In this document: piece after piece, positions 37,689 through 50,016 of the stretch
Layout of the letters: each line of letters starts with the position of its first letter
Position numbering within the stretch: the stretch's first letter is position 1
The notes under the pieces: model-generated
Seen by the model: the letters and a program-made list of their open reading frames with translations, nothing else
Databases searched by the model: none
What the model was told of the DNA's origin: nothing
Position numbers and translations under genes: made by a program
Assembly (NCBI RefSeq): GCF_024204685.1
Contig: NZ_CP100350.1
Coordinates: 868,001-932,000 of the forward strand
Length of the DNA stretch: 64,000 nt
Direction of reading: 5' to 3'
Origin: Gilvimarinus sp. DA14
Lineage (GTDB): Bacteria; Pseudomonadota; Gammaproteobacteria; Pseudomonadales; Cellvibrionaceae

Positions 37689-38627
37689 TCAGGCGTTAAG
37701 AAACTCACGCAAGCGCTGCAATACTAACTGCGCCAATTCATCCGGGGCAAACTTTGATAAGAAGCCATCGCAACCGACTTTTTTCACCATCGCCTGATTA
37801 AAACTTCCGCTTAGCGACGTATGCATAATCACATGTAAAGACGCCAATTGCGGGTTGGCGCGAACTTCCGCCGTTAGACGATAACCGTCCATTTCCGGCA
37901 TTTCGGCGTCAGTCACCAGTAACAAATATTCATCAGTCACCGTCACGCCTCGCGCTACTACCGACTGCAGACGCTGCAGCGCCTGCAGGCCATCTTGCGC
38001 CGCCTCCACCGCAATACCAAGTTCAGCCAATGTTTCGCGCACCTGACCTAAAGCAGTGGCAGAATCTTCGGCCACCAGCGCCTTTAACCTTAACGCGCGG
38101 GCGCGCTCTATCAACTCGCTGTCCAGCATCTGTGTCGACACGCTGGTGTTCATTGGGGCGATATCGGCGAGAACGCGCTCCACGTCGAGAATTTCCACGA
38201 TATCTTTGTCGACACGGGTAATTGCTGTCAGGTAGTGCTGGCGCCCGGTTCCCTTGGGCGGCGGTAAAATATCTTCCCAATTTAGATTGACGATTGTTTC
38301 AATTGCGCCGATTAAAAACGCCTGCACAGTGCGGTTATACTCAGCCACTATAAGACTGGCATTGTCGAGATCGCGGGTCTTCCCCAGGCCTATGGCGAGT
38401 GCCAAATCAATAACCGGTACCGCCTTGCCACGCAATTGGGCCACTCCGCACACGTGGGGATGGCTATGAGGCACCGGGCGCAGCTTGGGTAACTTAACCA
38501 CCTCCTGAACTTTAAACACATTAATAGCAAAGCGCTGACCTCTCCCCAAACGGAAAATCAATAACTCCAAGCGGTTTTGCCCCACCAGGTTTGTGCGTTG
38601 ATCCACCGAGTTGAGAATACCTGTCAT
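37689..38627 (-). CDS. cheV: Chemotaxis protein CheV (CheW-REC fusion)
   Basis: CheV is a coupling protein that joins chemoreceptors to CheA and carries a receiver domain for adaptation. Residues about 12-160 are a CheW-like domain (NRLELLIFRLGRGQRFAINV, VAQLRGKAVPVIDLALAIG); residues about 180-312 are a receiver domain with phospho-acceptor aspartate in LLVTDAEMPEMDGYRLT and the Lys-containing CDGFLSKFAPDELAQLV. No other chemotaxis gene lies in the window, so it acts on a remote system. Its ATG has AGGGGCGACAG upstream. It is convergent with slt and divergent from the EAL-HDOD gene. Confidence 0.95.
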   Translation of the reverse strand: MTGILNSVDQRTNLVGQNRLELLIFRLGRGQRFAINVFKVQEVVKLPKLRPVPHSHPHVCGVAQLRGKAVPVIDLALAIGLGKTRDLDNASLIVAEYNRTVQAFLIGAIETIVNLNWEDILPPPKGTGRQHYLTAITRVDKDIVEILDVERVLADIAPMNTSVSTQMLDSELIERARALRLKALVAEDSATALGQVRETLAELGIAVEAAQDGLQALQRLQSVVARGVTVTDEYLLLVTDAEMPEMDGYRLTAEVRANPQLASLHVIMHTSLSGSFNQAMVKKVGCDGFLSKFAPDELAQLVLQRLREFLNA

Positions 38628-38784
38628 CTGTCGCCCCTGTTTCCCGTTTTCGTTACCCTAGTAACGCTTAACATTTCCTAGAGTAAACGCCTCTTAGGTA
38701 GAACAAAAGAAAATTTACCCGCCAAGGCTAATTTACCCTACAATCGTGATTAAAGATAAGTACAGAGCCAGGCCCGAGTCACTA

Positions 38785-40029
38785 ATGCCTCACGAACATC
38801 CACTGTTGGCGCGCCAACCCATCTTCAATCGAAATATGGAGGTGGTGGCCTATGAGCTGCTTTACCGCACCGACCAACAAAACCGCGCCGAAGTGCTCGA
38901 CGGCGATATCGCCAGCACCCAAGTACTGCTCAACACCTTTACCGAACTCTCTATTGAAAAAGTGGTGGGTAAACATCGCGCCTTTATCAATTTTACCGGC
39001 GCACTTATGGATGCTCATCTGCCATTCGATGTTTCACAGCTAGTCGTCGAAGTACTAGAAACCGAAGAGCTCGATGCCAGCCTACTGCACCGGCTGAAAA
39101 CACTAAGAGATAAACGCTTTACCATTGCCCTGGATGACTTTGAGCTGAGCTCGGAAAATGAATCTCTCTTACCCTACGCCGACATCGTAAAACTCGACGT
39201 ACTGTGTTTGACGCAAAACGATCTTGATCGACACGTCAAAAAGCTAAAAGCTCTGGGAATACAGGTTCTAGCCGAAAAAATTGAAACCTTTGCCATGCTC
39301 GAATATTGCAAAGCCATTGGCTGCGACATGTTTCAGGGCTACTTTCTGGAAAAACCCCAAATCATCACCGGGCAACGGCTCAGCGAAAGCAAACAGGCCG
39401 TGCTGCAACTGCTGGCAAAACTGAACGATAAAAACGCTAAATTTGAAGATATCGAAGACATCATTTCGCGCGATCCGGTGCTGAGCTTTAAACTGCTAAA
39501 GCTGGTTAACTCAGCAGCTTTCGGATTACCTCGCACCATTGAATCCCTGCGCCAGGCCCTGACACTGCTAGGACTGAAGATCATCAAGAACTGGATCGGC
39601 TTACTGGCGATGGCGAAACTCGGCAACAAGCCGGCCGAACTGTCAGTAAAGGCCCTATCCCGCGCCAAAATGTGTGAGTTAATCGCGGCCACGCGACAAC
39701 CGCTTAGCCAGTGCGATTCGTACTTTACTGCCGGTTTATTATCAATGCTGGACGCCTTTATGGATGCCCCGCTGGAAAAGGTGCTGCGAGATATTCAACT
39801 CAGCCCTTCGCTACGCAGTGCATTGCTTGAGCATAAAGGTGAAGAGGGAAAGCTACTACAAACCGTAATCGCCTATGAACACGGCGAATGGGAGGCCATT
39901 GACTGGGACTACCTGAGTACATACGGTCTGAATCCCAGCTCGTTGTCCGCCTTGTATTTACAAACCCTCAGCTGGGTTGATGAAACTCAGCAAACCTTGC
40001 GAGCTGAAGTTAAAAGCGGCTTGGCCTAG
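38785..40029 (+). CDS. EAL-like and HDOD domain signalling protein
   Basis: The 414-residue protein joins an N-terminal EAL-fold domain to a C-terminal HDOD domain. LLARQPIFNRNMEVVAYELLYR opens the EAL fold, but the catalytic triplet is Glu-Leu-Leu and the lobe text (ALDDFELSSENESLLPYADIVKLD) differs from active phosphodiesterases, so it probably does not cleave c-di-GMP. HDOD follows from about residue 195 (DIEDIISRDPVLSFKLLKLVNSAAF, IESLRQALTLLGLKIIKNW). YuxH-like proteins of this type modulate motility and c-di-GMP signalling in other gammaproteobacteria. The ATG I use gives MPHEHPLLARQP; a GTG 13 codons earlier is possible. Confidence 0.88.
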   Translation: MPHEHPLLARQPIFNRNMEVVAYELLYRTDQQNRAEVLDGDIASTQVLLNTFTELSIEKVVGKHRAFINFTGALMDAHLPFDVSQLVVEVLETEELDASLLHRLKTLRDKRFTIALDDFELSSENESLLPYADIVKLDVLCLTQNDLDRHVKKLKALGIQVLAEKIETFAMLEYCKAIGCDMFQGYFLEKPQIITGQRLSESKQAVLQLLAKLNDKNAKFEDIEDIISRDPVLSFKLLKLVNSAAFGLPRTIESLRQALTLLGLKIIKNWIGLLAMAKLGNKPAELSVKALSRAKMCELIAATRQPLSQCDSYFTAGLLSMLDAFMDAPLEKVLRDIQLSPSLRSALLEHKGEEGKLLQTVIAYEHGEWEAIDWDYLSTYGLNPSSLSALYLQTLSWVDETQQTLRAEVKSGLA

Positions 40030-40042
40030 CGCGACGACAGCA

Positions 40043-40279
40043 TTACCCGGCAGAGCCAAACAGTTTTAGAATATCCGCGGATGAAAACGGCCACTGCAGC
40101 TCTCTGCCGTCGTCAGTTTTGATTACGGGAATTTTTTCGCCGTAACGCTCAATCATTTGATCATCACAAGCAATATCAAATTCGGTCACACGAATATCAA
40201 CAGCCGCAGCATGCAACTCAGCCCGGGCATTATCACAAAGATGGCACCCAACCGTGGTCAACAACAAAACCTTATGCAC
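40043..40279 (-). CDS. Glutaredoxin-like protein (DUF836 type)
   Basis: A 78-residue thioredoxin-fold protein. VLLLTTVGCHLCDNARAEL contains the redox pair Cys-His-Leu-Cys at about residues 12-15, and the later RYGEKIPVIKTDDGRELQWPF gives the cis-proline loop (IPVI) and the final strand. Length and layout match the glutaredoxin-like DUF836 family, whose members are short and lack the usual GSH-binding elements. The GTG start has GAGGTTGTT before it. It is convergent with the EAL-HDOD gene, 13 bases apart, and precedes the DUF5610 gene on the opposite side. Confidence 0.85.
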   Translation of the reverse strand: MHKVLLLTTVGCHLCDNARAELHAAAVDIRVTEFDIACDDQMIERYGEKIPVIKTDDGRELQWPFSSADILKLFGSAG

Positions 40280-40316
40280 AACAACCTCATTAATTATGGC
40301 AAGAGGCTATTGTAAA

Positions 40317-41426
40317 TCATAACTCGGTGTTTACCCCGGACTCACCTGCCTCACCAACAACAGCGGGCTGGGCGAGAAGATCCCGTACAAAATCAGCAAA
40401 GCGCCGTCCCTTTGGATCGGGCTGCTCGTCCTGCGGCAGGTACATGGCGTCGATTATCGATTGCAGAACATCTATTGGCTCGGCAAACACTGAAGCCTTA
40501 TCGAGCGCCTGTTGGGTATCCTTGATAAAGCGACCCACAGGTTCCAGCTGCTCGGCCAATCCGGATGTGGCGCCCTCGCCATAGCTCGCGCCTACACGCT
40601 GATACTCAACTTGGGTCAGCCTGAGGGCAAAGCCGCTGATTTGATTTGAGTCATAACCTAAGTTTTGTGCGTAAGAAAAAGCGCTATCCAGATTGCCGGT
40701 GAAAAATTCCTCGGCCAAGTGATCAACCTTATCGAGAAGATCGGCAAGTGACTGGCGCTCCTGCTCGCTGAGCTCGCCTTCAATCGTCAGGCTGTAGCGG
40801 CTGCTGGAAACTTCAGCGTAGGCAAATTCGGCAGCGTTATCAGCGCTGCGAAAACTGGCGCTGGCGCCAGTCGCCGACTGCGCTGCCACGGTTATGGTAT
40901 CGCCTTCGCGAGTGCGTACGACAAATTGAAAACTCTGCGCCCCGGCATAATCGTATGATGCCGCAAGCGGCGCTGACATCTCCTTCGCCGCCTGACTCAA
41001 CGCCACCTTGGTACTGGCATTTGGCGTGTATTGCTCGGCCAGCTTATCCACACCGGAGGTCACCAGATCGTAGGTTTTACCTATATCGGCTTGCACTCGC
41101 TCATTGAGCATATTAAGTGCCGACAGTCGCTCCTCGGCCTCGGCAAAACCCTTTTTGAAACCTTGCAGACCGGCCTGTAAGCGGCTTTGCAACTCACTTT
41201 CACTGGCGCCATCGGCCACGTCGCGCTGCAACTGGCGCTCGATAAAGCCAAGAATATTACCCGCTGCTTGCTCGGCAGTGAGCGGCTTAAAGCCTTTGGG
41301 CTGCGGTTCGGAAGATTCCACATAAGCCAGCGCGCGCTCACTCAGTAACGTAAAGTGGCGCGGGGTGTTGGCAGATAGCGCATTTTGCGCGGTGGGCAAA
41401 ATATCGGACGTTTGCTTGGTAAACAT
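40317..41426 (-). CDS. DUF5610 domain-containing protein
   Basis: A 369-residue cytoplasmic-looking protein with no signal peptide. The region around residues 45-110 (FKPLTAEQAAGNILGFIERQ, EAEERLSALNMLN) is the DUF5610 signature, a domain known from pseudomonads and Vibrio with no assigned function. The rest is helical with a beta-rich central part (SFQFVVRTREGDTITVAAQS, SRYSLTIEGELSEQE). The start has GGAGG seven bases upstream. It lies between the glutaredoxin-like and FHA genes and its job is unknown; partner relations with the FHA or TPR proteins are inference only. Confidence 0.82.
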   Translation of the reverse strand: MFTKQTSDILPTAQNALSANTPRHFTLLSERALAYVESSEPQPKGFKPLTAEQAAGNILGFIERQLQRDVADGASESELQSRLQAGLQGFKKGFAEAEERLSALNMLNERVQADIGKTYDLVTSGVDKLAEQYTPNASTKVALSQAAKEMSAPLAASYDYAGAQSFQFVVRTREGDTITVAAQSATGASASFRSADNAAEFAYAEVSSSRYSLTIEGELSEQERQSLADLLDKVDHLAEEFFTGNLDSAFSYAQNLGYDSNQISGFALRLTQVEYQRVGASYGEGATSGLAEQLEPVGRFIKDTQQALDKASVFAEPIDVLQSIIDAMYLPQDEQPDPKGRRFADFVRDLLAQPAVVGEAGESGVNTEL

Positions 41427-41483
41427 ACCGGGCCTCCGGAAGTAAATCGTCTCCTGAGGCTTACGGCCGTATATGGGAAAACT

Positions 41484-42347
41484 TTAGCCGCGGGTCAGAA
41501 AAAGCGCCGCCACCACCACCGCGGTCAACACAATCAAGACCGCGAGACCAGCACTGCCGTAGCGAGGCTTTTGCGCCGGGGTATCGACAGCCCCAAGGCT
41601 CGTGGCCGGGCGCGCCTGGGCTTGAGGGGCACTGGGTCGACTAGGTGCAGTACGCGCGGGCTTCGCGCTGCTCGGCCTGCCTACCGCTCTGACGGTGGTT
41701 TTGGCCATGTCGTCCGCCGGGCCAATAACACCAAAGCTCAAGGTATCGAACCGCAGTTCATCGCCACGCTTCACCCGCGCCTCTGTAACAGGCTTGCCAT
41801 TGAGATAAGTGCCATTAGCCGAGCCCAAATCACGCACGTACAGCACGCCTTCAACGACGTTTAACTGTGCATGACGTCGGGATAAGTGGGCCGCCGCCAG
41901 AGAGATGTCACAATCGCTTGAGCGCCCCACTAAATTGTTGGATTTAAGCGGGTAGACCCGATTGCCAAGCGCGGTGTGATTGGCTTTGAGTGCCCAGCCG
42001 GTGGTTTTTGGCGTGCGGGGGTTAGTTTGGGAGCGCTGGGCGGGAGCAGCGGTCGACTCATCTTTGGGGTCGATAATTTCAAGCTCGATTCCCGCCAGAG
42101 AAATGGTATCGCGAGCCGACAGTGCTTGGCCCTCACTTACCGCCTGGCCATTGACCTTTACCTCCGAGCCAGGCACCAGGTTTATCAAGCGCAGATTTTC
42201 ATGCTCCGCTTCAATCACCAAATGCTTATCGGCGATGTTGGGTGCGCTCACCACCAGCTCATTAGCTCTATGCCGCCCGATACTGATGCTAGGCTCAACG
42301 AGCCAAACCGCACTGTACTTTTTATTTTTGAAGCGGATTTTCAGCAT
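41484..42347 (-). CDS. Double-FHA-domain membrane protein
   Basis: A 287-residue protein with two forkhead-associated domains, which bind phosphothreonine. FHA1 (about residues 1-80) has ISIGRHRANELVVSAPNIAD but its SxxH is replaced by ADKH, so it may be degenerate; FHA2 (about 115-195) is complete with VGRSSDCDISL, HLSRRHAQL and GSANGTYLNGKPV. A Pro/Ala/Arg-rich linker follows, then a C-terminal transmembrane helix (GLAVLIVLTAVVVAALFLTRG), so the FHA domains face the cytoplasm. AAGGACG precedes the ATG. No serine/threonine kinase gene is in view. Confidence 0.88.
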   Translation of the reverse strand: MLKIRFKNKKYSAVWLVEPSISIGRHRANELVVSAPNIADKHLVIEAEHENLRLINLVPGSEVKVNGQAVSEGQALSARDTISLAGIELEIIDPKDESTAAPAQRSQTNPRTPKTTGWALKANHTALGNRVYPLKSNNLVGRSSDCDISLAAAHLSRRHAQLNVVEGVLYVRDLGSANGTYLNGKPVTEARVKRGDELRFDTLSFGVIGPADDMAKTTVRAVGRPSSAKPARTAPSRPSAPQAQARPATSLGAVDTPAQKPRYGSAGLAVLIVLTAVVVAALFLTRG

Positions 42348-42479
42348 CAAAGCGTCCTTTTTGCAATCGTTTAACGGCACCTGATAATGCAACACTGGTA
42401 CCGAGTTTTCAAGATAACCCGCGCACCTCGGACGCGCCTGCAGAGGTAAACTTGCAGCGCGACACAGTTTACACCTTCC

Positions 42480-44096
42480 TCAGTTCATGCCGGCCCACTG
42501 CTGACGCAAGCGGTTAAATCGATCGCGCTGGTCGATATCCAGCTCCCCCCCTTGCTGCAGCCTCTCAATCAACACCTGCCCCCGGCGCCGATGAGGTTCT
42601 TTTTCCTCAGCCACCCCCAGGGCCGCCACAATTGTCTGCAGTAAGTTCAAAGCCACACCGCTGTGACGAGGGAACTCGCACATTGCCTGCTCAAAACATA
42701 CTAGTGCCTGGGGATAGTTCTTGGACTCGTAAAGGCCAATACCCTGTTTGTTTAAGCTCGCCAGGCGTTCGCGTTTTTTACGGCTGAGAGGCTCCGCGAG
42801 CAGTACATCAACTTTTTCCAGCACGGCCTGATCCTGACAGTGGTGCTGACGCAGTTGCTCAAGTAATTCATCCCGCAGAGCCAGCTCCTGTAAATAGTCA
42901 GCCGCACTGGCCAAATCGAGCAAAATGGTTACCGGTAAGGAAATCAGCTCATGTTCGGCCTGCATTTGTTGCATCAGCTGCCGCGAATAGACGGCATCGC
43001 CACCGATTGCGTTAAAGGCACACGCCACCGATCGCAACTCGAGCTGTTGTTCTGGCTCTTGAGTAAAACGACTGTCGAACTCTTCCAACACACGCTTTGC
43101 ATCTTTATAAAAGCTCTGCCCTTTTTCCCGGTCGGTGTATCCAAGCTCGGCACACGAGCGCACAAAGGCCAAGTGCACATCCGGATTGTCATAACAAGAG
43201 TGCAACCCGAGCCTCACTGCCTGGCGCAGAGCGTTCGCGGCTAACAATAGCTGGCGATTATCTAGCGCCTGTTGCCCCAGCAACTGTTGTCGCACGACTG
43301 ACAGTGGCGACAATTCGACCGCCTGCTGCAACACTGCTTGGCGAGCTTGAGGGTCGCCGGTAGCGGCCTGCATCTCGGCCAATAAATCGAGTGCCGGCAA
43401 GCAATTCTCATTACTAACCAGCGCCTGCTCCAGCCAATGCTCTGCCCTCTGCCAATCGTTTTGCGCGGCATAAACACGCGCTATTCCCAGCTGGGCCCAA
43501 TCCCACTCGCGCTCAGTCATTACCTGGCGGTAAAAAGCTTCGGCGCTGTCGTAGCGCTTTTCCTCCAGTAACAGCTGGCCCAATAGCTTTTGCACCTGAT
43601 TCTGGTAGCGACCTTGAGCCTGCGACAAAACCTGGCAAATCTCGATCGCTTTGGCCCTGTCACCGGCGTTGAGTGCAGACCAATAAGGCGCCATGGCTCG
43701 ACGCTGCTGTAGCAATCGGGCAAGACGATCTCGCAGGGTTTTGGTGGACACAGGCTTGGTAAGAAAGGCATCGGGCTCAGCATCGGCGGCCGCCAGCACT
43801 AGCGCTTTGCTGAATTCATCGGAAAGTAAAACGAAAATAGCGCCTGGTTTTAACTGCCCCTCTTTTCGCAATTGCTCTAACAACTGCAGGCCGTTTTTGC
43901 CCTGCCCCAGGCTGAAATCACAGAGCACTAAGTCATATTGCAAGTTGCGACACTTGCGCAGCGCATCGAGGCCGTTGACGGCGGTATCCACATGCTCGCA
44001 CCCCAACTGCTGCAATAAACGCATCACCGCCATGCGAAAATTATCAAAGTTATCGACCAGCAACACTCTGGCACTAACGATATCGCTTAATCCCAT
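42480..44096 (-). CDS. Response regulator with C-terminal TPR-like repeats
   Basis: The 538-residue protein has an N-terminal receiver domain (about 5-125; phospho-acceptor Asp in DLVLCDFSLGQGKNG, acidic pair in LLVDNFDNFR) and a long helical region with tetratricopeptide-like repeats (YDSAEAFYRQVMTEREWDWA, WQRAEHWLEQALVSNENC, YPQALVCFEQAMCEFPRHSG). There is no DNA-binding domain, so output is likely through protein contacts. GGAAGG lies seven bases before the ATG I chose. No sensor kinase is adjacent. It sits 58 bases after the EAL-CBS-GGDEF gene and ahead of the FHA gene on the same strand. Confidence 0.85.
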   Translation of the reverse strand: MGLSDIVSARVLLVDNFDNFRMAVMRLLQQLGCEHVDTAVNGLDALRKCRNLQYDLVLCDFSLGQGKNGLQLLEQLRKEGQLKPGAIFVLLSDEFSKALVLAAADAEPDAFLTKPVSTKTLRDRLARLLQQRRAMAPYWSALNAGDRAKAIEICQVLSQAQGRYQNQVQKLLGQLLLEEKRYDSAEAFYRQVMTEREWDWAQLGIARVYAAQNDWQRAEHWLEQALVSNENCLPALDLLAEMQAATGDPQARQAVLQQAVELSPLSVVRQQLLGQQALDNRQLLLAANALRQAVRLGLHSCYDNPDVHLAFVRSCAELGYTDREKGQSFYKDAKRVLEEFDSRFTQEPEQQLELRSVACAFNAIGGDAVYSRQLMQQMQAEHELISLPVTILLDLASAADYLQELALRDELLEQLRQHHCQDQAVLEKVDVLLAEPLSRKKRERLASLNKQGIGLYESKNYPQALVCFEQAMCEFPRHSGVALNLLQTIVAALGVAEEKEPHRRRGQVLIERLQQGGELDIDQRDRFNRLRQQWAGMN

Positions 44097-44154
44097 CACC
44101 CTTCCAGACTGCTTATTCCGCTCCAGCATAGCCGAAAGCGGCGACTAGGGAAAT

Positions 44155-45924
44155 CTAGGCTGGTTGAGGCCGGGTATTAGAGTCGGGAGTACGGCGGCGG
44201 GATAAAAACACCTGCTGACCACCAAGTGCCTTGGCACGATGCTTAGCTTCGGCCAACAACAGCGCCACCTGATGATGGGTAAGACAATGATCTGGGTCCG
44301 GATGGACGCAGCCAATGGCAATACTGAGTGGGCCAAAACGACGCCGTTGACCGTGCCGATCCTCCGTGCAGTAATCCAATTGCGCCGGCGGCATTCGCTC
44401 TACAATGGCCCGGCTGAAACTCTCGATCAGAGATTCGCAGCGCTCACGCCAATCGCGGCTTTTAAACACCACCACAAAGTCGTCGCCCCCTACATGCCCG
44501 ACAAAATCTACCTCTGGCTGGACCGTTTGCCGCAGTAGTTGTCCGAGCAAAATAATAACGTCATCGCCACTGCTGTAACCAAACGCATCATTGAAGGGCT
44601 TAAAGTGATTAATATCGCAGTAAGCCACAATAAAGTCCGCCTTTTGACACAACAGCCGATCAATCCACTCGTACAACGGAACATTGCCCGGCAGCGCGGT
44701 AAGCGGGTTAGAGTGGCGAGCCGCGCGCAGCTTTTCATCGGCAATACTGCGCAAAATACTGCGCACTTTGGCCACACCCACGTAGCGCCCTGCCTCGCTG
44801 ACAATAATATCCACACTCAGGTTTTGTGCTGGGTCTTCTGTCACCAGCCGCCCGGCCGAATTCAGATCGCTGTTGATGTCCATAATCAAGCTACGCGGGC
44901 TGATAAAACCAGCCACAGGTTTGTTGGCATGCAGCTCGTACGAATAGCGCCAGGAAAAAGTATTTAACAGCTCCGAGCGGCTGATCACCCCCATGGGGGT
45001 GTGATCTTCTGCGACTACCGGCAGGCAGGTCAGGCGCACATCCGAGCGAAACATTTTGACCACATCACCAGCGGTCGTATGGGGTGGGATACCTGGCTCG
45101 GCTACGGTTACCTCGCGCAAAGTGTGGTAGAAAGTATCGCGCGACTGAGGCATCGCCGTAGCCCTCACTTCATTTAAATGAGCGGGCAATTCGGTAAGCG
45201 GTTCACGGCTGGGGCGGGCGATGTAGAACCCCTGCATGTATTCAACCCCCATAGATACTAGGGTTTTAAACTCCTCGGCGGTTTCAATACCTTCTGCAAT
45301 CACCTTGTTGCCGATGCGGTTGGCGATATCCATCATAAAGCGCACAAACTCGCGCTTGACCGCGCTGCGCTCTATGCCGCTAACAAAGTGGCGATCGATT
45401 TTTACGTAGTCCGGGTTGAGCTCACTCCAGATACGCAAACCCGCGTAACCGGCCCCTAAATCATCGATAGCTACCGCAAAGCCCTGGCGCTGAAAGTGCT
45501 CACAGGCGCTGCTCAGTAGATCGTACTCTTCCATTGGTTGTTTTTCGGTAAGCTCAAATACGACCCGCTCCGGGTCCAACTTGAGCTTACGCAGTATCGC
45601 CATGGTTACGCCGTCGCGGTATTGGCTGTCGGTAAACGACAGAGGTGTCATATTGAGGAATAATTGCCCGGGCAGGCGCTGGGCCATAAACGCCTGGCAG
45701 GCAACCTCACGGCAGGTGTATTCCAAACGCGCGAGCAGGCCCGAGCTGGCAGCGGCAGAAAAAAGCTGATCGGGGCGCTCGAGCCCAGAGCCCTCTGGCC
45801 CGCGAATCAGAGCCTCAAACCCCGCAATGGTGCCATTAATCACATTGATAATGGGCTGAAAAACAGGATAGAGCTGAGCACGCTCAATCACTTCCTGCAG
45901 TTGCAATTGGAGGTGCTGCGTCAC
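44155..45924 (-). CDS. EAL-CBS-GGDEF c-di-GMP signalling protein
   Basis: The 589-residue protein starts at GTG with AAGGAGG five bases upstream (the open frame runs 26 codons further). Order: EAL domain about residues 1-240 with GFEALIRGPEG, NMTPLSF, ELTEKQP, IDDLGAGYAGLR, DYVKIDRHF, VIAEGIETAEE and GFYIARP all present, so phosphodiesterase activity is likely. A CBS pair follows (CLPVVAEDHTPMGVISRSEL), then a GGDEF domain with ADFIVAYCDINHFKPFNDAFG and the signature as Gly-Gly-Asp-Asp-Phe. The upstream RxxD inhibitory site is PEVD, so feedback control may be lost. P. aeruginosa PA3258 has, as I recall, the same composition. Confidence 0.9.
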   Translation of the reverse strand: MTQHLQLQLQEVIERAQLYPVFQPIINVINGTIAGFEALIRGPEGSGLERPDQLFSAAASSGLLARLEYTCREVACQAFMAQRLPGQLFLNMTPLSFTDSQYRDGVTMAILRKLKLDPERVVFELTEKQPMEEYDLLSSACEHFQRQGFAVAIDDLGAGYAGLRIWSELNPDYVKIDRHFVSGIERSAVKREFVRFMMDIANRIGNKVIAEGIETAEEFKTLVSMGVEYMQGFYIARPSREPLTELPAHLNEVRATAMPQSRDTFYHTLREVTVAEPGIPPHTTAGDVVKMFRSDVRLTCLPVVAEDHTPMGVISRSELLNTFSWRYSYELHANKPVAGFISPRSLIMDINSDLNSAGRLVTEDPAQNLSVDIIVSEAGRYVGVAKVRSILRSIADEKLRAARHSNPLTALPGNVPLYEWIDRLLCQKADFIVAYCDINHFKPFNDAFGYSSGDDVIILLGQLLRQTVQPEVDFVGHVGGDDFVVVFKSRDWRERCESLIESFSRAIVERMPPAQLDYCTEDRHGQRRRFGPLSIAIGCVHPDPDHCLTHHQVALLLAEAKHRAKALGGQQVFLSRRRTPDSNTRPQPA

Positions 45925-46021
45925 AGCGTCCTCCTTATTGATGTGGGAAAAGTAAAACGGCTTCAAGCAGCATGGCGCAATTGTCCACGCGAAATGTGAC
46001 ATTACAATGACAGGACACTTA

Positions 46022-46050
46022 TTGAGCGCAAAGGCAATCGCCGCTAGAAT
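46022..46050 (+). promoter_or_regulatory. Promoter of cmoB
   Basis: TTGAGC (46022-46027) and TAGAAT (46045-46050) are separated by exactly 17 bases, a good sigma-70 pair. Transcription would start near 46057, some 37 bases before the cmoB ATG. It lies in the gap to the divergent EAL-CBS-GGDEF gene. Confidence 0.65.
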
Positions 46051-46093
46051 GCACCGCCCTTAACACCCACTCCGAGCCAGGCGCTGCCAGCTA

Positions 46094-47062
46094 ATGATCG
46101 ACTATCAAGCACTGACGGAATTTCTCACCGGCCATCCACGGCTGCACAGGTGGTGCGAGCAACTGGAAGATGACATTCATCAGGGCCTTAGCCCGCAAAG
46201 GTTTGGCGATTTGCCAGCCTGGCTTGAAGCCCTGCAACGGCTCCCGCACATTGAGCCGCAGACGCTACAGTTAGCAGACGAAGTATCAGTTAGCGGTATC
46301 TGTGACGAGCAAACCCGAGAGCAGGCACGTGCCGCTTTGCAGGCGCTGATACCTTGGCGCAAGGGACCTTACACGCTGCACGATATCCACATTGATACCG
46401 AGTGGCGCTCAGACTGGAAGTGGGAGCGTATCCGCCACAAGATCGCCCCGCTGCACAACCGCTTGGTTTTGGATGTAGGCTGCGGCAATGGCTATCACGG
46501 CTGGCGCATGCTGGGCGATGGCGCAGCTAGGGTTATAGGGATAGATCCCTCGCCTAGATTTGTCGTGCAGTTTGCGGCTATTAAACACTTTTTAGGCCGC
46601 TCGCAGCCTATCGATGTACTACCCATAGGCATCGAAAAGCTACCCAGCGAGCTACGCGCTTTCGACACTACGTTTTCTATGGGTGTGTTCTACCACCGCC
46701 GTTCCCCGATGGATCATCTGCGCGAGCTGAAAGATACCCTGCGAGCCGGTGGACAACTGGTGCTGGAAACGCTGGTCATAGAAGGTGGCGAAGGCGAGGT
46801 GTTAGTGCCTAAGGGCCGCTATGCGATGATGAATAATGTCTGGTTTATCCCAACCCCTGACACGCTGATAAGCTGGATGCGTAAGTGCGGATTTAACAAT
46901 GCCAGACTGGTAGACCTATGCCCCACCACAGTTGAAGAGCAACGAGCGACCGAGTGGATGAAATTTCACTCGCTGGAGAACTTTCTCGACCCACAAGACC
47001 CCGGCAAAACGATCGAGGGTTACCCGGGGCCAATTCGCGCAACGCTGGTCGCCGAAGCTTAA
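46094..47062 (+). CDS. cmoB: tRNA U34 carboxymethyltransferase
   Basis: CmoB transfers a carboxymethyl group from carboxy-SAM to 5-hydroxyuridine at tRNA position 34, widening codon reading. The 322 residues show the N-terminal extension (LHRWCEQLEDDIHQGLSPQ), WRKGPYTLHDIHIDTEWRS-type linker, and the methyltransferase core with LVLDVGCGNGYHGWRMLG and VIGIDPSPRF, then LVLETLVIEGGE and FIPTPDTLISWMRKCGF, all family-typical. CmoB needs carboxy-SAM made by CmoA, whose gene is usually next to cmoB, but none is in this window. Confidence 0.96.
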   Translation: MIDYQALTEFLTGHPRLHRWCEQLEDDIHQGLSPQRFGDLPAWLEALQRLPHIEPQTLQLADEVSVSGICDEQTREQARAALQALIPWRKGPYTLHDIHIDTEWRSDWKWERIRHKIAPLHNRLVLDVGCGNGYHGWRMLGDGAARVIGIDPSPRFVVQFAAIKHFLGRSQPIDVLPIGIEKLPSELRAFDTTFSMGVFYHRRSPMDHLRELKDTLRAGGQLVLETLVIEGGEGEVLVPKGRYAMMNNVWFIPTPDTLISWMRKCGFNNARLVDLCPTTVEEQRATEWMKFHSLENFLDPQDPGKTIEGYPGPIRATLVAEA

Positions 47063-47670: not shown

Positions 47671-47902
47671 TGTTTACCTTACCCTATTCACCAAAGTACA
47701 CGCTCGGGGACGAGAGATCTGAGCCGATTACCCGAGAGCGCGAATTCTCCCAGCAAAAACCCATAGGCGCAAGCGACTGCATGCTATGCTGACAGTAGTT
47801 AAGAAAGGTTAACCGATACCGGATTGCCATGACAGGCGTGCGCCCGTGATGCAAACTTGGCGCACTTTGCCAACTACAAAGCAAACAACAACAGAGGTCG
47901 GG

Positions 47903-48628
47903 ATGGCTGATATTTTACTTATCGACGACGATAGAGAACTGTCGGAACTCTTGCAGGAATACCTGATCAGCGAGGGGTTTTCCGTATCCGTTGCCTTCGA
48001 CGGCTCTGAAGCCCTGGATATGGCGCGTAACAACCAGTACACCGCGATGATTCTCGACGTGATGCTGCCGCGCCACAGTGGTTTTGACGTTCTCAAACAA
48101 TTGCGCCAACAGCCCGAACTCGGCCAGCAGGACACCCCGGTGATTATGCTCACCGCCAAAGGCGATACCATAGACAGGGTTATTGGGCTTGAGATCGGCG
48201 CCGATGACTATTTGCCAAAACCCTGCGATCCGCGCGAACTGGTGGCCCGTTTACGCGCGGTACTGCGGCGCACCAGCGTCAATCAAAAGGCCTCCCCTGA
48301 GGCAGACACCCTGCAAGTGGATAGCCTGCTGTTGCAAATGGGAAGCCGGGCCGCCTACTGGCAGCAAAACCTTCTACCCTTAACCGGCACCGAATTCAGC
48401 GTTCTGGAATTGTTGGTTCGTCAAGCCGGCCAGGTTATCAGCAAGGACGAGCTCACCGAGCAGGCGCTGGGACGTAAGCTGACCCCCTATGACCGCAGCA
48501 TTGATGTCCATGTCAGCAATATTCGTAAAAAACTGTCCGCCGCCGGCGCAAGCAAAGAGCAAATCATTAACGTGCGCGGCGCGGGCTATATGCTGACCCG
48601 TGCCAGCGAGGCTCCCGCCGCCCAATGA
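47903..48628 (+). CDS. cpxR: CpxR-type response regulator (OmpR family)
   Basis: A 241-residue response regulator for envelope stress. ADILLIDDDRELSELLQEYL gives the acidic pocket, AMILDVMLPRHSGFDVLKQL carries the phospho-acceptor Asp, and GADDYLPKPCDPRELVARLRA the switch Lys. The C-terminal winged helix has LTGTEFSVLELLVRQAGQV and SIDVHVSNIRKKL, the DNA-recognition helix of the OmpR class. The chosen start has AGAGG upstream; another possible start is 19 codons earlier. It overlaps cpxA by four bases (ATGA). The Cpx identity rests on this order and on similarity of both proteins; RstA/RstB is an alternative. Confidence 0.88.
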   Translation: MADILLIDDDRELSELLQEYLISEGFSVSVAFDGSEALDMARNNQYTAMILDVMLPRHSGFDVLKQLRQQPELGQQDTPVIMLTAKGDTIDRVIGLEIGADDYLPKPCDPRELVARLRAVLRRTSVNQKASPEADTLQVDSLLLQMGSRAAYWQQNLLPLTGTEFSVLELLVRQAGQVISKDELTEQALGRKLTPYDRSIDVHVSNIRKKLSAAGASKEQIINVRGAGYMLTRASEAPAAQ

Positions 48629-50016
48629 CCCGGCTTTATTTACGGGTCTTTTTGACCTTCTGGTGCATTACCGCCGTCATTATTGTCACCTCAAACGTCA
48701 TTGTTCACTGGCGCGATATTAATCCAGACAATAACCTACAGCGTCTGCGCGACGATCGCGACTACGAGCCGGCGCTGCGCTTTCTTTACCAAATCGTCGG
48801 CTCAGCGATTAACCGCAATTCCGCCCAGGTATTGGCGGATATGCGCAGCATGCCCGAGTGGTCTACACGCCACTTTTATATTGTCGACTCCACCAACCGC
48901 GACCTGCTGGACCGCCCCCTACCAGCAGGAGTTCATCACTTGGTGCCCAAGCTTAACCCCAGCCACCCCTTTGACAAAGTAATTCTCGATGAAGAAAAAA
49001 CCTGGGGTCGACACGTCACCCTGAACGATGGCAAAAGCGTAAAAATTTTTACCATTGCCACCAGCGCCGGCGACAACCGCTCGGGCAACATCGTCTGGCA
49101 ATTATTTATTAATAATATCTGGCCGCTGCTGCTGACCTCTATTTTGGTCAGCGGTACCGCCTGCTTCTTTCTCGCCCGACACCTGGCACGTGGTTTATCC
49201 ACTCTGCAGCGGGCCACGCGCTCAATCGCCAAAGGGGATTTAAGTGTGCGCATCAGTGACCGCTTTGATACCAGGCGCGATGAGATCGCCTCCTTGGCAC
49301 ATGATTTTGATCATATGACCGAGCGCCTGGAAAAGGCCATGGCGGAACAAAAACGACTGATTAAAGATGTCTCTCATGAGCTGCGCACCCCGCTCGCACG
49401 CCTGCAAGTAGCATTGGCCCTCGCCCAACAGCGCAGCCAGGGCACGGTTGATAAAGAATTGGATCGTATCCGCCAGGCAGCCGATTACCTAGGCGACATC
49501 ATCTCCGACATTCTCGCCCTTCCCGTATTGGATGACGGCGGCTGGACCCTAGATGACACCATGGATTTAAGTGCACTACTCGAAGCCTTAAATCAGGGGC
49601 TGGAGAGTGAAGCGGCGCGCAAAAACATCACCTTAAAGCTGGACAACCCGTTAAGCGAGGCACTGTTAGCCACCCACGGTAATATGCTTTACGGCGTATT
49701 CGACAATGTCTTACGCAACGCCCTGCGTTACACCCCCACAGGAGGCACCATAACCACATCGCTGCGACAAGAGGCTGGAAATTACCATATCGACGTCGCA
49801 GACACAGGTCCGGGCGTGCCCGAGGCTCAACTTGCGGATATTTTCGAACCCTTTTACCGCACCGACCAGGCCCGCGACCGCGAGAGTGGAGGTTATGGTC
49901 TGGGCTTGGCTATTGCCCAACGCACAGTCGCCCTGCACGGCGGCAGCATAAAAGCTCGCAACCGCCAGCAGGGAGGGCTTGAAGTCTCGATCACATTACC
50001 GCGTAACGGCGACTGA
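48625..50016 (+). CDS. cpxA: CpxA-type sensor histidine kinase
   Basis: The partner of CpxR: 463 residues with a first transmembrane helix (LRVFLTFWCITAVIIVTSNVIV), a periplasmic domain of about 130 residues (through KSVKIFTIATSAGD), a second helix (LLLTSILVSGTACFFLARHL), a HAMP linker, and the dimerisation helix with KDVSHELRTPLARLQVALAL, where His is phosphorylated. The ATPase has NVLRNALRYTP, VADTGPGVPE and GYGLGLAIA, all N, G1 and G2 boxes. No CpxP-like inhibitor lies next to it. It is co-transcribed with cpxR. Confidence 0.9.
   Translation: MTRLYLRVFLTFWCITAVIIVTSNVIVHWRDINPDNNLQRLRDDRDYEPALRFLYQIVGSAINRNSAQVLADMRSMPEWSTRHFYIVDSTNRDLLDRPLPAGVHHLVPKLNPSHPFDKVILDEEKTWGRHVTLNDGKSVKIFTIATSAGDNRSGNIVWQLFINNIWPLLLTSILVSGTACFFLARHLARGLSTLQRATRSIAKGDLSVRISDRFDTRRDEIASLAHDFDHMTERLEKAMAEQKRLIKDVSHELRTPLARLQVALALAQQRSQGTVDKELDRIRQAADYLGDIISDILALPVLDDGGWTLDDTMDLSALLEALNQGLESEAARKNITLKLDNPLSEALLATHGNMLYGVFDNVLRNALRYTPTGGTITTSLRQEAGNYHIDVADTGPGVPEAQLADIFEPFYRTDQARDRESGGYGLGLAIAQRTVALHGGSIKARNRQQGGLEVSITLPRNGD

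Follow-up and report, generated by a model that had tools for sequence, protein, structure and literature searches.

A REC–TPR response regulator that has probably outlasted its kinase-like partner at a composite signaling locus of Gilvimarinus sp. DA14

What role is left for a response regulator at a locus that encodes no kinase for it? This question arises in a 64,000-nucleotide stretch of the Gilvimarinus sp. DA14 genome (G000 in our survey), hereafter the window, which spans positions 868001–932000 of a single-contig, 3.96-Mb genome. Three genes on its minus strand are at issue: one for a response regulator with a receiver and tetratricopeptide repeats (REC–TPR; 42480–44129), one for an EAL–CBS–GGDEF protein with the architecture of RapA and PA3258 (44155–45924), and one whose product carries two FHA domains followed by a C-terminal hydrophobic segment (41484–42347). 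From adjacency, the initial annotation drew the hypothesis of a module in which phosphorylation state gates cyclic di-GMP (c-di-GMP) output. We favor another explanation, to which we give a probability of roughly 0.6: REC–TPR would be a kinase-orphaned, phosphorylation-independent adaptor beside a phosphodiesterase, joined at this locus to an FHA unit with partners of its own.

We searched 100 genomes of the family with each protein and found matches to REC–TPR in 76 (E ≤ 1e-25), to EAL–CBS–GGDEF in 34 (E ≤ 1e-60), to the FHA protein in 93 (E ≤ 1e-12), and to the DUF5610 protein encoded after it in 71 (E ≤ 1e-6). Gene maps of 60 stretches plus locus L038 revealed, in some relatives, a gene for a protein of ~240 amino acids (aa) between REC–TPR and FHA; the DA14 locus is without such a gene. 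Thus, DA14 bears out the earlier remark that these genes come without a kinase of their own, but several relatives have a kinase-like gene at exactly this position. Pfam assigned HATPase_c to the two ~240-aa proteins scanned and detected no sensor domain, and an SSVHDMKN box conserved in the kinase-like proteins may be read as a histidine box. The kinase-like gene adjoined REC–TPR on one strand in 70 of the 73 family genomes with both, and in 27 of 27 genera; in the three exceptions (G206, G118, and G189), the two genes are on different contigs. No strong kinase match occurred without REC–TPR in any of the 100 genomes, and among the 76 REC–TPR genomes only G000, G175, and G220 had no kinase-like gene, their best kinase matches being weak (E of 6e-11, 4e-10, and 1e-14, respectively). 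The kinase tally took one strong row from each of 73 genomes and excluded weak rows (E above 1e-15) and the second strong row of G161; the REC–TPR tally comprised 87 rows, which were the top row for every one of the 76 matched genomes and some others. At the level of the order, REC–TPR matched in 53 of 145 genomes, and the kinase-like gene stood next to it in 25 of 27 loci outside the family (best matches of the 53 genomes). In nine kinase-bearing loci, the two frames overlapped by up to 32 base pairs (bp) or were separated by ≤22 bp when called with a simple open reading frame (ORF) caller. Out of 40 loci, a cruder gene caller labeled the kinase in 33; it missed at least one (L243, G202) where the survey places a kinase. 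The genome G225 (L161) keeps the kinase-like gene and has an extra ORF of ~80 aa between EAL–CBS–GGDEF and REC–TPR. A limited literature search found no paper on the kinase-like/REC–TPR pair.

The absence of the kinase in DA14 appears to reflect lineage-specific loss. A tree of seven concatenated neighboring proteins grouped G000, G175, and G220 in one clade (support 100), placed kinase-bearing G205 next to it (support 99), and set G057 with G214 apart; a single kinase loss in the clade of G000, G175, and G220 is the simplest reading. Within the genus, REC–TPR was found in six of eight genomes, the protein of Gilvimarinus chinensis being 68% identical to that of the window, and in G057 and G214 every candidate was scored and none reached E ≤ 1e-20. 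Two other possibilities for the kinase were rejected. At the 132-bp junction of REC–TPR and FHA (42348–42479, minus strand), which is the site of the kinase-like gene in relatives where the two are joined, tblastn with kinase proteins gave no match better than E 0.78 that could mark a remnant. When all nine candidates for a relocated copy in G000 were scored, at the search sensitivity applied, the best was a generic kinase-like frame (E 6e-11).

REC–TPR has, by Pfam, an N-terminal receiver and TPR and no helix-turn-helix domain; its C-terminal part was helical in a structure model of modest confidence (mean predicted local distance difference test [pLDDT] score 68.4). In an alignment of receiver sites, from which one duplicate REC–TPR row was dropped, all but one of the 54 kinase-adjacent proteins (53 of 54) carried DDD(S/T)K. 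The window protein has D26, N27, D71, S103, and K125, such that DD2 is N27 and the other four residues are kept. The kinase-less receiver of G175 shares this D N D S K site, and in that of G220 the site reads D R E S K, with the acceptor changed from D to E. Three order loci with no kinase within the flank examined (L022, L023, and L026), which we kept apart from the 54, had E D D T K (one) or D E D T K (two). By its sequence, the window protein would count as a pseudo-receiver in the sense of missing a conserved phosphotransfer residue (N27), as would that of kinase-bearing G166.

The ratio of receiver distance to core distance was 1.8–2.8 for kinase-less pairs, compared to 0.5–0.8 for four kinase-bearing pairs (a fifth, G160–G199, had no core value) and 2.3–2.8 for pairs across the two groups. 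The corresponding TPR values were 3.6–4.1 in the kinase-less clade versus 1.8–2.5, and those of EAL–CBS–GGDEF were 0.6–1.1 versus 0.7–0.8; the rise of about threefold applied to the receiver only. The REC–TPR frames of G000, G175, and G220 were open, at 539–549 aa, with core divergence of 0.16–0.34 substitutions per site. The G000 and G175 genes differed at 144, 87, and 289 first, second, and third codon positions, respectively, and this bias toward third positions indicates that the orphan REC–TPR remains under purifying selection. We used codon-position bias because synonymous sites are near saturation, which makes the ratio of nonsynonymous to synonymous rates (dN/dS) rough.

The EAL–CBS–GGDEF gene, with a GTG start at 45924 and an AAGGAGG Shine–Dalgarno sequence, ends 25 bp before REC–TPR. 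Pfam placed EAL at residues 8–238, one CBS match at 279–321, and GGDEF at 408–502. In a comparison of 37 aligned proteins, the EAL motifs of the window protein were FEAL, FLN, ELTE, DDLG, VKID, AEGIE, and QG, and GGDDF stood in place of GGDEF in 36 of the 37 (GGDRF in one); a phosphodiesterase is predicted. According to a 2026 paper, PA3258, which has the same architecture, behaves like a phosphodiesterase and shows apparent cyclase activity once phosphodiesterase activity is abolished; the paper calls RapA a homologue of PA3258 (PMC12900916). Of 33 genomes with both EAL–CBS–GGDEF and REC–TPR, 20, in four genera only, had them adjoining on one strand, which argues that this neighborhood is more than chance; outside the family, adjacency read by eye was 0 of 13 genomes with both. 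Among another 20 family loci, 17 had divergent cmoB upstream of REC–TPR, with cmoA between in 16, compared to none of 20 non-family loci; the two cmoA products scanned were CmoA by NCBIfam. In many relatives cmoA immediately precedes cmoB, but it is absent at the locus (45924–46094) in the window and in G175 (L038).

The FHA gene has neighbors of a different kind. Tallies for FHA, DUF5610, and PP2C used mainly the best row per genome, and these counts, here and below, are among the matches listed for FHA and PP2C. Of the 68 genomes with both FHA and DUF5610, 56 (18 genera) had the two genes side by side on the same strand. In other relatives, gene maps showed a gene for a ~250–300-aa protein divergent from FHA, partly with a gene for a ~800-aa protein beyond it; Pfam identified the former as PP2C and the latter as Pkinase plus FGE-sulfatase (two of each scanned). 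In 61 of 93 genomes (22 genera), FHA and PP2C were neighbors lying on opposite strands, and in 23 genomes (five genera) FHA stood beside REC–TPR/kinase, with no overlap between the two sets; PP2C rows of G157, G174, G180, and G198, which have no FHA match, were left out. In the 23 joined genomes, PP2C without exception adjoined a Ser/Thr kinase match elsewhere in the genome, and it was 48–506 kb from FHA in the 15 in which both share a contig. In DA14, the kinase and phosphatase genes are likewise not beside FHA, and PP2C is 504 kb away with a kinase match adjoining. This PP2C and Ser/Thr kinase-like pair (contig 1, 401951–405352) resembles genes beside FHA in many relatives. Among the 61 FHA–PP2C genomes, PP2C adjoined a Ser/Thr kinase match in at least 36 (at least 10 genera), a lower bound, since the count took a single kinase row per genome in 63 genomes.

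In 50 aligned FHA rows, with the species G175 present twice, the phosphothreonine-site residues GR, SRxH, and NGT of FHA2 were invariant (50/50) and FHA1 was degenerate; the hydrophobic segment begins at residue 266. The longest FHA ORF starts at 42395, and scanning and upstream comparison identified a promoter-like motif, TTGAAA-N17-CATTAT (42384–42412, minus strand), upstream of FHA here and in part of the relatives. This motif, which is retained in the clade around DA14, occurred in 22 of 48 FHA loci (10 of 14 joined, 12 of 34 non-joined), plus the window, versus 2 of 707 other genes. Because PP2C is the neighbor in 61 of 93 genomes and REC–TPR/kinase in 23, and because FHA has its own promoter-like motif here and in relatives, FHA is not an original member of the group. 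An ancestral module of FHA, REC–TPR, and EAL–CBS–GGDEF was rejected by the neighbor tallies in family genomes. Co-occurrence in relatives, which the initial annotation had suggested as a check, holds for EAL–CBS–GGDEF with REC–TPR, but FHA accompanies REC–TPR/kinase in only the 23 genomes; orthologues of FHA are scattered away from the rest in most genera, a pattern that the initial annotation had named as refuting its hypothesis, and those of REC–TPR and its kinase are not.

Downstream of FHA by 57 bp, the DUF5610 gene occupies 40317–41426 (minus strand). Its protein had no match among PDB sequences at E ≤ 1, a model from a two-sequence alignment reached a mean pLDDT of 38.7, and a limited literature search found no paper naming the domain. 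Conservation among DUF5610 proteins extends past the Pfam domain into a C-terminal region. An FHA-binding threonine at the DUF5610 N-terminus was rejected, as none was conserved over 38 proteins. At the class level, FHA lay ≤1.5 kb from DUF5610 in 0 of 16 loci besides that of the window. After a further 37 bp comes a 78-aa glutaredoxin-like ORF (PF05768; 40043–40279, minus strand), and several relatives have comparable small ORFs after DUF5610 or FHA. Thus, FHA, REC–TPR, and EAL–CBS–GGDEF are consecutive on one strand, as initially described, though DUF5610 and the glutaredoxin-like gene continue the run to five, with gaps of 25, 132, 57, and 37 bp. Beyond it lie an EAL–HDOD gene on the opposite strand (38746–40029, plus), by Pfam and gene maps, and a minus-strand gene for CheV (CheW plus REC; 37689–38627). 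Pfam confirmed the domains of all genes that had been named; these are six, and the reported total of seven is reached only if the glutaredoxin-like ORF counts. EAL–HDOD, which had been labeled probably c-di-GMP-inactive, keeps by eye many EAL catalytic residues (E, N, E, DD, K, E, and Q) and has a degenerate loop after DD; that label is tentative. On the other side of the run, 47846–50016 carries genes for an OmpR-type regulator and for a histidine kinase whose sensor domain is AbfS (PF18225).

We propose that two older units meet at this locus. One would consist of REC–TPR and a small, sensorless histidine-kinase-like protein, a pair that lies divergent from cmoAB across most of the mapped family loci and, for one group of genera, has the EAL–CBS–GGDEF phosphodiesterase gene upstream. 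The other would be FHA–DUF5610, often with the glutaredoxin-like gene, having PP2C on the other strand in most genera and partly a Ser/Thr kinase beyond. In five genera these units came together, with the PP2C and Ser/Thr kinase pair elsewhere in the genome. The histidine-kinase-like gene would then have been lost in the clade holding DA14 and REC–TPR retained, with its acid pair changed, its receiver evolving faster, and purifying selection still acting. In DA14, REC–TPR would be a phosphorylation-independent TPR adaptor, most likely acting on the EAL–CBS–GGDEF protein encoded 25 bp upstream, and FHA–DUF5610, probably transcribed from its own promoter, would read phosphothreonine made by the distant Ser/Thr kinase. 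We put forward tentatively a more specific version, in which kinase loss turned a conserved REC–TPR phospho-switch into a constitutive adaptor of the neighboring c-di-GMP phosphodiesterase, with one genus showing successive stages: an intact pocket with kinase, an altered acid pair without kinase, and a phospho-mimic acceptor without kinase.

Several findings weigh against the kinase-orphaned adaptor. Acceptor D71 is intact in the window protein, and another kinase or a small phosphodonor could act on it. The exception among the 54 kinase-adjacent proteins, G166, has D N D S K, and DN alone is thus no proof of lost phosphorylation. Because the three kinase-less genomes represent one loss, their site changes are few events rather than independent replicates, and the Fisher p of 1.4e-4 overstates independence. 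Rates relative to core also rose in the clade for DUF5610 (3.5–3.6 versus 1.4–2.0) and mildly for FHA (1.4–1.8 versus 1.1–1.3) and EAL–HDOD (1.3–1.6 versus 0.8–1.0); since the rise extends beyond the receiver, rates are supporting evidence and the site changes weigh more. Pfam found no HisKA in the two kinase-like proteins scanned and the histidine box is our own reading, so kinase activity of the ~240-aa protein is putative. G057 keeps EAL–CBS–GGDEF although it has no REC–TPR, and contact between these proteins is hypothetical. With respect to FHA, the promoter-like motif was chosen after viewing sequences and then counted, and it is missing in G160, G199, G165, and G185; in G160, G199, and G165, the gap from the kinase to FHA is 0–50 bp, which together with the missing motif makes co-transcription with the kinase likely there. 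Finally, 25 of the 61 FHA–PP2C genomes have no adjacent kinase match among the matches listed.

The intact D71, S103, and K125 of G000 and G175, together with the DN site of one kinase-bearing relative, would also suit an orphan that is phosphorylated by another histidine kinase and is still a phospho-switch. A HisKA/HATPase kinase is present at 48625–50013, the AbfS-like protein 4.5 kb away, and most orphan response regulators are described as typical rather than atypical (PMC12632262). We consider this explanation unlikely, as the acid pair is altered in three of three kinase-less genomes, the G220 acceptor is changed from D to E, and the nearby kinase comes with an OmpR-type regulator of its own, encoded immediately upstream. 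Quite unlikely, in our judgment, is joint gating of EAL–CBS–GGDEF by REC–TPR and FHA according to phosphorylation state, from one operon with kinases in trans, even though the five same-strand genes with gaps of 25–132 bp, the retention of FHA and REC–TPR/kinase on one strand in 23 genomes of five genera, the intact FHA2 site in 50 of 50 rows, and the Ser/Thr kinase-like matches in G000 would fit it. The promoter-like motif of FHA, its PP2C neighbor in 61 of 93 genomes, and the 0 of 13 adjacency of EAL–CBS–GGDEF and REC–TPR outside the family speak against such gating. Phosphorylation gating is not supported in DA14 because the kinase gene was lost, no relocated copy was found, and the acid pair is DN; with FHA not an original member, the three-part module initially proposed lacks support in this organism. 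That the orphan is a decaying gene with no function left, heading for loss as in G057 and G214, which gave no match, would agree with its fast evolution in the clade. Frames of 539–549 aa that stay open in three genomes despite 0.16–0.34 core substitutions per site, and differences biased to codon position 3, make this outcome very improbable.

How pseudo-receivers are activated or inactivated is called a mystery in a 2025 review (PMC12632262). Kinase-bearing and kinase-less orthologues at one locus in one genus provide a natural series in which this question becomes a swap experiment, and a switch protein kept after kinase loss is a chance to study the switch without its trigger. The kinase-like/REC–TPR pair is found across the order. 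More generally, two older units can meet in what looks like a plausible signaling operon, as would be the case here.

Modules of Ser/Thr kinase, PP2C, and FHA are known, for example PpkA–PppA–Fha of type VI secretion. The loci surveyed resemble these in that FHA has PP2C as its neighbor in 61 of 93 genomes, at least 36 of which also show a kinase match next to PP2C among the matches listed. In contrast to such modules, the kinase has an FGE-sulfatase domain (two scanned), DUF5610 often follows FHA, and the kinase–phosphatase pair is ~0.5 Mb away in G000. The EAL–CBS–GGDEF protein shares domain order and EAL motifs with RapA of P. fluorescens Pf0-1 and PA3258 of P. aeruginosa and, by architecture, is expected to be a phosphodiesterase (PMC12900916, PMC3032545), but here its gene adjoins REC–TPR. 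Pseudo-receivers are described as having a non-acidic DD2 in about 80% of cases, and the characterized atypical regulators as nearly all orphans (PMC12632262). The kinase-less REC–TPR proteins resemble these in their non-acidic DD2 and differ in having kinase-bearing and kinase-less orthologues in one genus at one locus, with two grades of site change.

VieB of the Vibrio cholerae VieSAB system is reported to inhibit VieS, and the phosphorylation mimic D62E to weaken this inhibition (PMC4352251). Compared by architecture, both VieB and REC–TPR have an N-terminal receiver followed by TPR and no DNA-binding domain, and the VieB gene is accompanied by genes for a histidine kinase and an EAL phosphodiesterase, much as REC–TPR is in relatives. 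Unlike the multi-domain VieS, the partner in relatives is ~240 aa with no detected sensor domain and is absent in G000; unlike VieA, the EAL protein here has no receiver. The D62E substitution has a natural counterpart in the D to E change at the G220 acceptor, and by analogy VieB appears to be the closest biochemical precedent for the REC–TPR protein.

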